Shown one piece after another: positions 13,601 to 25,695 of a DNA stretch of 25,777 nucleotides (within the stretch, counting starts at the first letter, position 1; every line of letters starts with the position of its first letter). The position numbers and the translations under genes are program-made. The stretch is from a virus. The notes beneath the pieces are model-generated. The model saw nothing but the letters and a program-made list of their open reading frames with translations, did not search any database and was not told the origin of the DNA. The stretch is from positions 1 to 25,777 of IMG/VR virus record IMGVR_UViG_3300012919_000033. One strand, 5' to 3'.

Positions 13601-14194
13601 ATGAGTAACTTAATACCAATGGTAGTCGAATCTACCAATAGAGGAGAAAGAGCCTATGACATTTACAGTCGCCTATTGAAAGATAGAATTGTGATGTTGA
13701 ATGGTCCTGTTGAAGATCATAGTGCAAACATAGTTGTTGCACAGATGCTTTTCTTAGAAAGTGAGAATCCAGAAAAGGATATTAATTTTTACATTAATAG
13801 TCCTGGAGGAATAATTACAAGTGGCATGAGCATTTATGATACAATGCAATATGTCAAGTGTGATATAAGAACCATAGTGCTAGGACAGGCTTGTTCTATG
13901 GGTTCATTCCTTGCTCAAGCAGGAGCACCAGGCAAACGTATACTTCTACCTAATGCAAGAACAATGATCCATCAACCAAGTGGTGGAGCAAAAGGTATGG
14001 CAAGTGATATTGAAATACGTTACAAAGAAATACAGTATCTAAAAGAAAAACTTACAGAGCTGTACGTGAAACACAATACAGCAGGTAAGACTTATGACGA
14101 CTTCATGAAAGACATGGATCGTGATTATTTCTTAAGTGCTGAAGAAACAATAGCATACGGTCTTGCAGATAAGATCGAGGAGAAACGTAAGTAA
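13601..14194 (+). CDS. clpP: ClpP-like serine protease
   Basis: The 197-residue protein matches ClpP in length and landmarks: [18 protein letters not shown] near 66-83, the nucleophile S99 in [10 protein letters not shown]124 in MIHQPSGG, and D175 in [10 protein letters not shown]. ClpP degrades proteins handed over by ClpX or ClpA; no such ATPase is in the window, so it would use the host's or work without one. The elbow reads ACSMGS rather than the usual AASMGA. Roles proposed for phage ClpP include host takeover and virion maturation; none can be read here. Confidence 0.94.
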
Positions 14195-15192
14195 TGTTGA
14201 TTTGGGGAATTGTTGGAAACAGTCATGATGCCAGTGTGGCAATCTTTAATAAGAACACATATGACACTTTAGAATGTCTATGGGCAGGATTGTCTAAAGA
14301 CTTCAGTGGCATAGAACATGATCCACATTTAAATGATAAAATGTTGGAACACATATTTGAAAAAGAATGTTTTAACAATCCCGACAAAATTGTTTGGTAC
14401 GAAAAACCTTTCTTGAAAACTTTAAGACAATTCAAAGCAGGTCAAGGTTGGCTTGGAAAGGAAAATAATATAAAACAGTATCTAAGCAAATGGAATCTAA
14501 CTGCTCCTATAAGTTATGTACAACATCATAGGTCACACGCCGCATATGGTTTTTACACTAGTGGACTTGACAACGCAACCATCATGTGTTTGGATTCAAT
14601 AGGAGAGTTTGAAACATTTACAATATGGGAAGGCAAAGGTGCAAAACTGAAGCAAGTGTTCTCCGGAAAGTATCCACATAGTGTTGGATTGTTTTATAGT
14701 GCAATGACACAAAGACTAGGACTACAGGCAAACAGAGATGAATACAAGGTTGGTGCCATGGGGTCAGAAATTGCAAGTTCAGAAAACTTAGAACTTATAA
14801 CTGACATGGTAGAAACATTTATTGAACCTCCTTTGAATGGATCCAAGCCTGGTGTTAAATTCAAACACAACTTACACAAAGGTTGCAATTGGTACAAGCC
14901 TGAACTTACCACAGAACACGACATGAAGAGATTGGCAGATGCTACTCAATATGTTTTTGAAATGATAGTCCAAAGTAATAGCAAATGGTGTCGTAATAAC
15001 CTGTCAAGTCGGAACTTAATATTGACAGGAGGTTGTGCATTAAATAATGATGCAGTGAGAAAAATACGTAAAGATTGGAACTACATATATGTACCAAAGA
15101 ATCCTGGTGACCCAGGAAGTTGTATTGGTGCAGTTTTGGCATTGGAAAGCAAACATATTGACTTTGACCAACAAGTGTGGTATAATAAGTAA
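14194..15192 (+). CDS. Carbamoyltransferase, N-terminal (Kae1-like) domain only
   Basis: The 332-residue protein resembles the N-terminal domain of the NodU/CmcH/TobZ carbamoyltransferases: GIVGNSHDASVAIF at 5-18, the HHRSHAAYGF metal-binding motif at 111-120, MCLDSIGEFET near 131-141, and LTGGCALNND in the nucleotide-binding C-terminal part. The YrdC-like C-terminal domain that makes carbamoyl-adenylate in full-length (about 550-600 residue) members is missing. It may need a partner, or do a different transfer. A consensus sigma70 promoter for the next gene is embedded in its last codons. Confidence 0.88.
   Translation: MLIWGIVGNSHDASVAIFNKNTYDTLECLWAGLSKDFSGIEHDPHLNDKMLEHIFEKECFNNPDKIVWYEKPFLKTLRQFKAGQGWLGKENNIKQYLSKWNLTAPISYVQHHRSHAAYGFYTSGLDNATIMCLDSIGEFETFTIWEGKGAKLKQVFSGKYPHSVGLFYSAMTQRLGLQANRDEYKVGAMGSEIASSENLELITDMVETFIEPPLNGSKPGVKFKHNLHKGCNWYKPELTTEHDMKRLADATQYVFEMIVQSNSKWCRNNLSSRNLILTGGCALNNDAVRKIRKDWNYIYVPKNPGDPGSCIGAVLALESKHIDFDQQVWYNK
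15158..15186 (+). promoter_or_regulatory. Consensus sigma70 promoter inside the carbamoyltransferase 3' end
   Basis: TTGACT at 15158-15163 and TATAAT at 15181-15186 with an exact 17-base spacer. The ATG of the next gene lies five bases after the -10 (15192), so the transcript would begin at or within the start codon. It could supply the downstream gene 41 helicase. Confidence 0.7.
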
Positions 15193-17969: not shown

Positions 17970-18000
17970 CAGTCAAGTTTATTTGACTGAAATTTTTTTT
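17970..18000 (+). terminator. Rho-independent terminator
   Basis: A perfect 7-bp stem (CAGTCAA / TTGACTG, loop of six) at 17970-17989 is followed by AAA and eight Ts. It ends the gene 41 to SGNH operon and separates it from the synthetase-like/tRNA unit. Confidence 0.85.
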
Positions 18001-18028: not shown

Positions 18029-18859
18029 ATGACGCAACTAATATCCCCCACAAAGTTTACACACGCAGTTGGCCTTCTTAGGTCATTTTTTTTGGATAAA
18101 GGATTTGAAGAAGTCCATACACAAAATAGATTAAGCATACTAGCCGCTTGTGAAGATCCGTTCAACGTAGCAACATACAATTACGCAGGCCAGGTATGGC
18201 CCTTACCCCAAACAGGCCAGATGTGGCTTGAACACGAATTATTAAGTAGCCCCTCTTCGAAGGGGTTTTTTTGTGTCTCCACATCCTATAGACAGGAACC
18301 AAATGCAATACCAGGAAGGCATGATATCATCTTTCCAATGTTTGAATTTGAGATGCCTGGTGATATAGATGACCTTAAGAAGATGGAGTATGAATTATGT
18401 GAACACTTGGGCTTTAAAAAGCCTACTGAAAAAACTTATGCTGAATGGCAAAAGCATTATGGTCATGCTGAAGACTATGAAATGACTGCGGAAGAAGAAA
18501 CCAAGATGCACGAAGAGTTTGGTACAACCATGATAACAGACTTCCCTGAAATGACATCACCTTTTTGGAACATGAGCAGAAATGATGATGGCAAAACTGC
18601 AAAGAAGATAGATGTTATACTAGGTGGTATGGAAACAATAGGAAGTGCGGAACGTTCATGCGATGTAGAAATGATGCGTGATACATTCCATAGCATAACA
18701 GACGGAGAATACAGTAAGCTACTTTATAAACTATTCAGTCAGGAACGTGTTGAAGCAGAGCTAGAAAAGTTTCTAGAGTTTGACTTCTTTCCGAGAGTTG
18801 GTGGCGGAATAGGTATGACACGTATGATTGCGGCCCTAGATAAACACTGGAAAGATTAG
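18029..18859 (+). CDS. Class IIb aminoacyl-tRNA synthetase-like catalytic domain (Asn/Asp type)
   Basis: The 276-residue protein has class II synthetase motifs: motif 1 region LRSFFLDKGFEEVHTQ near 17-32, motif 2 FCVSTSYRQEP...RHDIIFPMFEFE near 81-108, an ETIGSAERS block near 199-207, and motif 3 GGGIGMTRMIAAL near 259-271. These fit the AsnRS/AspRS/LysRS core. The OB-fold anticodon-binding domain is absent (AsnRS is usually about 430-470 residues). It may charge the tRNA six bases downstream, or be an AspRS-derived asparagine synthetase as known in archaea. AAGGA with eight-base spacing supports the ATG. A hairpin with seven Ts lies inside the gene. Confidence 0.85.
   Translation: MTQLISPTKFTHAVGLLRSFFLDKGFEEVHTQNRLSILAACEDPFNVATYNYAGQVWPLPQTGQMWLEHELLSSPSSKGFFCVSTSYRQEPNAIPGRHDIIFPMFEFEMPGDIDDLKKMEYELCEHLGFKKPTEKTYAEWQKHYGHAEDYEMTAEEETKMHEEFGTTMITDFPEMTSPFWNMSRNDDGKTAKKIDVILGGMETIGSAERSCDVEMMRDTFHSITDGEYSKLLYKLFSQERVEAELEKFLEFDFFPRVGGGIGMTRMIAALDKHWKD
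18250..18272 (+). terminator. Terminator-like hairpin inside the synthetase-like gene
   Basis: CCCCT / AGGGG with a six-base loop (CTTCGA) is followed by seven Ts, within codons for PSSKGFF. It has the form of a weak intrinsic terminator and could cap expression of the 3' part of the gene and the tRNA, or mark an older gene junction. Confidence 0.5.
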
Positions 18860-18865
18860 TATTAC

Positions 18866-18966
18866 TCTGGGGTGGTGGAATAGGTAGACACGTACGACTG
18901 TTAATCGTATGGTAGATGTACTGCAATATATTTACCGTGTAGGTTCGAGTCCTACCCCCAGAGCCA
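18866..18966 (+). tRNA. trnN: tRNA with GUU (Asn) anticodon on a class II body, CCA encoded
   Basis: Folding by eye gives an acceptor stem TCTGGGG (18866-18872) with CCCCAGA (18956-18962), discriminator G18963 and encoded CCA. The D stem has 3 bp (GTG/CAC) with an AATAGGTAGA loop; the anticodon arm is TACGA-CTGTTAA-TCGTA with GTT at 18900-18902; the T arm is GTAGG-TTCGAGT-CCTAC. GUU plus G73 are the asparagine identity elements of E. coli. The 29-base variable region (18910-18938) forms a 7-bp arm (GGTAGAT/ATTTACC), and with the Leu/Ser-like D arm this is a class II body, whereas tRNA-Asn is normally class I with a five-base variable loop. Confidence 0.88.
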
Positions 18967-25615: not shown

Positions 25616-25695
25616 AAACACACTCCGTTACAAAGTGCGTTGCTTCGGTTAAGCCTACTTCCGTCCCTATGTATATGCAGGGATCAACGTATAAT

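Follow-up and report, generated by a model that had tools for sequence, protein, structure and literature searches.

The locus and its two genes

The window analysed here is the whole of a 25,777-nucleotide stretch of viral DNA (IMG/VR record IMGVR_UViG_3300012919_000033, positions 1 to 25,777). Between positions 18029 and 18966 a gene for a synthetase-like protein is followed by a tRNA, and the following features were mapped in this region and just upstream of it:

17970..17999, + strand: terminator-like hairpin between the preceding ORF and the gene, close to the latter (pattern match only)
18029..18859, + strand: 276-residue class IIb synthetase catalytic core (PHROG 29758) with an AsnRS-type pocket and no anticodon-binding domain (profiles, predicted structure, alignment)
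18070..18093, + strand: terminator-like hairpin 1 with T8, inside the coding sequence
18248..18272, + strand: terminator-like hairpin 2 with a T run, inside the coding sequence
18866..18963, + strand: tRNA with a class II body and Asn identity elements (GUU, G73, U1-A72) (Rfam, covariance model, covariation)
18900..18902, + strand: anticodon GUU; position 37 (18903) is A in this copy
18910..18938, + strand: variable region of the tRNA, 29 nt; its base stem covaries among relatives
18964-18966, + strand: encoded CCA after the tRNA

The protein matches PF00152 with an E-value of 4.9e-18, the match covering the catalytic core alone, and PHROG 29758 (8.6e-129), which is annotated as unknown function. 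An AlphaFold2 model reached a mean pLDDT of 94.6 and is closest to the solved cores of human and Pyrococcus AsnRS and yeast AspRS. Profile searches among solved relatives likewise ranked eukaryotic and archaeal AsnRS on top (7e-13), with archaeal asparagine synthetase weaker (1e-4). The N-terminal OB-fold anticodon-binding domain is absent, and the Asn/Asp-type core without such a domain that an earlier note had described from the DNA is thereby confirmed. The protein shares with AsnRS the catalytic core, motifs 2 and 3 and the side-chain pocket, but differs in lacking the anticodon-binding domain, in having GxGx[TNQ]R in place of GxGxER, in an identity of 17–20% and in scoring 31.8 bits with TIGR00457 (asnS), far below the cut-off of 342.6. 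Identification as an EF-P lysylation enzyme (EpmA) or as AsnA was dropped, the matches being far below cut-off or absent.

The ATP- and Asn-binding residues of AsnRS align with E42, Q64, E68, R88, E106, E202, R209 and R265, and the motifs TGQMWLE, FEFE and ETIGSAER align with its Asn-type pocket. Where AspRS has Lys, this family has Leu (TGQMWLE versus SPQLFKQ). Since the pocket residues are AsnRS-like and Leu replaces the AspRS Lys, the alignment favours Asn as the amino acid that the enzyme would use. Also conserved in the family is the Glu with which AsnRS contacts the alpha-amino group; this fits ordinary alpha-adenylation and counts against the role in pyrimidine synthesis considered below. 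With a net charge of about -18 the phage protein is very acidic, which is unusual for a tRNA binder; a basic patch was considered as an argument for tRNA binding and found no support, the phage protein being more acidic than its cellular relatives.

The tRNA begins exactly 6 nt after the stop codon. It is matched by RF00005 with 55.5 bits (E 1.2e-9), whereas ARAGORN at default settings did not detect it. A covariance model built from relatives scores it at 90 bits, with a training set that included a locus 100% identical to that of the window (L001). In a comparison of 29 diverse tRNA relatives, 23 base pairs are kept in 99.9% of cells, and 21 of the 23, among them the stem of the variable arm, show double (compensatory) changes; conservation and covariation together exclude chance as the source of the structure. 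The real tRNA proposed in the earlier note therefore stands, as do its Asn identity elements and long variable arm, with one correction: the D-arm (TGGTGGAATAGGTAGACACG) is tRNA-Leu-like. The acceptor stem reads UCUGGGG/CCCCAGA, G73 lies at 18963 and the anticodon loop CUGUUAA is canonical, with U33 and A37. Genuine tRNA-Leu would have A73 and a Leu anticodon, here replaced by G73 and GUU, and a tRNA-Asn would have a short class I variable region in place of the 29 nt found. Given the Leu-like D-arm, the molecule looks like a Leu-type scaffold bearing Asn identity elements. Near the end of the window a glutamine riboswitch (RF01739, 53.8 bits) was found at 25634-25691 on the minus strand.

Distribution of the protein and of its partner tRNA

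Relatives were drawn from IMG/VR, the cultured cyanophages P-SSM2, P-SSM5 and P-SSM7, huge phages and cellular genomes. A GUU tRNA with a long variable region is present at 162 of the 179 phage-type loci, and eight others are cut by contig ends, which leaves about 171 loci with enough downstream sequence. The distance from stop codon to tRNA is 5–13 nt in nearly all phage loci. When viral contigs were searched with the tRNA alone, the protein was alongside in 79/79 cases: 77 contigs with the protein and two apparent orphan tRNAs that proved to be contig edges with the C-terminus of the protein visible upstream. Most marine T4-like phages with the gene thus carry a dedicated long-armed, Leu-like tRNA that keeps the Asn acceptance signals. 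The T4-GC 194 'tRNA ligase' and tRNA-Asn of P-SSM2, P-SSM5 and P-SSM7 belong here, being of the same family (66%) with the same long-armed tRNA directly after; these genes were annotated one by one, however, and no description of the synthetase-like gene and the tRNA as a pair was found in the open-licence literature.

Cellular homologs are chromosomal, 50–66% identical and have the active-site motifs in common. None has an adjacent tRNA, and in 24 cellular genomes with a homolog the best matches to the covariance model, which were the ones inspected, are Leu or Ser tRNAs. Two huge phages (735 kb and 484 kb) encode the protein without the partner tRNA; among the matches read, only Leu-type and other ordinary tRNAs were seen. 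A scan of viral contigs with the protein of the 484-kb phage gave no confirmed relatives. Even close relatives of the window (L025 and L026, the latter within a 187-kb record) have the protein without the tRNA. In the tree, tRNA-bearing phages are scattered in several places among tRNA-less cellular branches, which implies that the link between protein and tRNA was gained or lost more than once. The co-occurrence that the earlier note proposed to check therefore applies to phages (162 of about 171 loci); relatives in cells and also in huge phages commonly lack the tRNA. Its proposed placement by profiles and tree gave an AsnRS/AspRS-type core that lies under the cut-offs of both AsnRS and the archaeal asparagine synthetases (AS-AR), with AsnA far below or absent. 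The firmest clue is an asymmetry: no tRNA of this kind turned up without the enzyme, but the enzyme often occurs alone, so that to call the protein one partner of an obligate pair would be too simple.

Several further observations were made at these loci. Just after the protein or the tRNA, L025 and L031 have a common element, AATGAAAGTGAGTAAAAATATGG, within an inverted repeat, a possible structured RNA. At CPR loci (including L184, L189, L191, L197 and L198) a tRNA-Gln(TTG) often lies a few kb away. Translated with table 11, the homolog in a candidate division SR1 genome (L234) is interrupted by in-frame stop codons, which agrees with a lineage that reads TGA as Gly.

Among 104 distinct partner tRNAs the anticodon GUU and G73 are invariant (104/104 each) and U1-A72 is kept in 100/104, while other acceptor-stem pairs drift and the variable region ranges from 11 to 38 nt. 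Position 37 is a pyrimidine in 94/104 (U in 89, C in 5), the window tRNA belonging to the ten copies with A37, and position 33 is other than U in 8/104. Other tRNAs in the same loci have a purine at position 37 in 168/171 and a pyrimidine in 3/171. In bacteria, Asn identity lies in the anticodon and G73, and the amidotransferase signal is U1-A72 (review, PMC9976931). By these patterns the signals for Asn acceptance seem better protected than those for decoding, though not in every copy. In one relative, L174, the partner tRNA carries GUC as its anticodon, and its variable region spans about 79 nt; this tRNA lies at L174:4314-4461, about 500 nt downstream of the protein.

Pyrimidine gene context and intragenic hairpins

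At about 20 cellular loci the homolog lies within pyrF/pyrE/pyrD clusters, often less than 100 nt away; it adjoins one of these genes in Bacteroidota, Pseudomonadota, Myxococcota, Midichloriaceae, Dependentiae and Pasteurella atlantica. We scored the enzymes of pyrimidine synthesis in 35 homolog-bearing genomes, most of them MAGs of unstated completeness: CarA was found in 2 (absent from 33), ATCase over cut-off in 4 (31 without) and dihydroorotase TIGR00857 at any score in 11, with TIGR00856 adding one weak case, whereas all three enzymes were found in 14/14 control genomes. DHODH is over cut-off in 22/35. On the P. atlantica chromosome DHODH is present, CarA and dihydroorotase gave no match, and the sole ATCase-like match is below cut-off. 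Alternative sources of carbamoyl phosphate exist (T. kodakarensis, PMC13260591), but as an explanation they would leave the missing ATCase unaccounted for. At CPR loci the homolog stands beside dus, serS and dnaX in conserved order, and once beside a GatA-like amidase, not beside pyr genes; the CPR part of the evidence is weaker, as these genomes often lack early pyrimidine steps or nucleotide synthesis anyway.

In phages, pyrD lies directly upstream of the enzyme gene in L010, L011, L178, L381, L384 and L385, with PF01180 over cut-off in all three phage pyrD genes tested, and a pyrE-like gene directly follows the tRNA in L010, L011 and L069. The link concerns a minority of phages, at least six contigs, and for most loci no pyr gene lies within 3 kb; phage pyr matches near and far from the enzyme gene number 8 and 6, a modest contrast. 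P-SSM7 has pyrE elsewhere in its genome, and the contig of the window has no pyr gene. Homologs of E. coli carA, carB, pyrB and pyrC were not found in the phage loci, and no description of a pyrimidine link of the gene family was found in the open-licence literature. The window also encodes a NodU-like carbamoyltransferase (PHROG 1601, 14194-15192), an enzyme that would use up carbamoyl phosphate.

The two hairpins within the coding sequence were compared with the number expected from synonymous codon resampling. Among distinct sequences similar to the window, hairpin 1 is present in 47/47 and hairpin 2 in 54/55 (expected 1.6 and 0.97), and among P-SSM7-like sequences in 64/65 and 31/68 (expected 3.05 and 1.5). 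The arms of both covary, and three control regions in phages have no such hairpins. The excess is smaller in cellular homologs (20/73 and 19/74). The hairpins are most simply read as elements of translation-coupled attenuation, which would suit a pyrimidine gene. By this means E. coli pyrBI couples its expression to the UTP supply.

Possible roles of the enzyme and its tRNA

The gene context points to an enzyme of metabolism that has a tRNA to itself, and not only to a translation pair. Our tentatively preferred interpretation, put forward from comparison of genes and genomes, is that the family may depend on Asn to catalyse an early step of pyrimidine synthesis, aided in phages by a tRNA of its own that accepts Asn. 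The enzyme would activate asparagine (or aspartate) with ATP and form one of the first pyrimidine intermediates; in the simplest case this would be dihydroorotate, made from Asn and CO2. It would thereby replace CarAB, PyrB and PyrC. The phage tRNA would act as Asn carrier or as charging substrate dedicated to the core enzyme, in most copies being poorly suited to decoding, and the two hairpins would be attenuators that tie expression to the UTP supply as in pyrBI. The atom balance (C4H8N2O3 + CO2 - H2O = C5H6N2O4) makes a one-enzyme route conceivable. We regard as unlikely, yet worth spelling out, the full scheme in which the AsnRS-derived core converts asparagine (in phages, carried on the dedicated Asn-tRNA), CO2 and ATP to dihydroorotate independently of carbamoyl phosphate, bypassing carbamoyl-phosphate synthetase, aspartate carbamoyltransferase and dihydroorotase. 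Such an enzyme would feed the same PyrD-PyrE-PyrF steps as the CarAB-PyrB-PyrC route, to whose enzymes it has no sequence relation. Metabolite synthesis that depends on a tRNA is known from glutamyl-tRNA reductase in the C5 tetrapyrrole pathway. There, too, an aminoacyl-tRNA serves as metabolic substrate, but fold and product are different, and tRNA use by the phage enzyme is only inferred. Against a role in pyrimidine synthesis stand the canonical loop of the window tRNA (U33, A37) and its contig without a pyr gene, the few phage pyr neighbours, the CPR context, the MAG-based counts and the acidic protein. Nor would this reading account for a pyrimidine enzyme that needs a tRNA, since the cellular homologs have none.

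The close and main rival, which we consider a serious if somewhat doubtful candidate, is a private AsnRS-tRNA pair, as raised in the earlier note. In our version the core would charge the adjacent tRNA without reading the anticodon, by recognition of the acceptor end and the long variable arm. The tRNA would decode AAU/AAC in phage genes and might in addition escape host nucleases or toxins directed at tRNA-Asn. The invariant GUU, the Asn-type pocket motifs, the tight adjacency of gene and tRNA and the canonical anticodon loop of the window copy all agree with this. What stood of the proposal is that protein and tRNA form one module, the tRNA never occurring without the protein and the pairing recurring in several phage branches. 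What weighs against it is that a close phage relative, huge phages and cells have the enzyme but not the tRNA, together with the pyr clusters, the GUC of L174, the strong acidity of the protein and the anticodon loops of the partner tRNAs, most of which have a pyrimidine at 37 and some a base other than U at 33. These odd bases beside a conserved GUU would also suit a tRNA acting as decoy or resistant substitute against a host defence directed at tRNA-Asn, kept charged by the enzyme; no defence or target was identified, and pyr context and enzymes without the tRNA would go unexplained, so that we consider this very improbable.

Less likely than either the pyrimidine enzyme or the private pair, and improbable on the sequence comparisons, is an archaeal AS-AR-type asparagine synthetase, which would form Asn from Asp, NH3 and ATP, the tRNA being a separate second aid to Asn use. 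It would share with AS-AR (PDB 3p8t, NF005053-NF005055) a stand-alone AsnRS-derived core of similar size, to which the weak profile match (1e-4) adds; AsnA is found in 0/30 genomes with a homolog, and most of these genomes have another way to Asn-tRNA. The phage protein, however, has no match to NF005053-NF005055 at E<=1e-3, and cellular homologs score 15–21 bits against cut-offs of 309–389 (best 21 versus 389). The gene context is different as well, clear AsnB-type synthetases occur in many homolog-bearing genomes, and the pyr clusters and the loss of carA and pyrB would be left unexplained. The AspRS-derived asparagine synthetase of the kind known in archaea, which the earlier note had offered as its alternative, thus lacks profile support.

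Ocean phages, the cultured P-SSM2 and P-SSM7 among them, commonly carry the family, which is therefore open to experiment. Even a private pair alone would offer a naturally occurring synthetase that lacks an anticodon-binding domain and is matched to a long-armed tRNA-Asn, of use in studies of tRNA recognition and for orthogonal pairs. If the role in early pyrimidine synthesis is true, the enzyme would represent a new way of making the pyrimidine ring, would explain why many genomes keep pyrD-pyrE-pyrF without the earlier steps, and would give a phage tRNA a role in metabolism.
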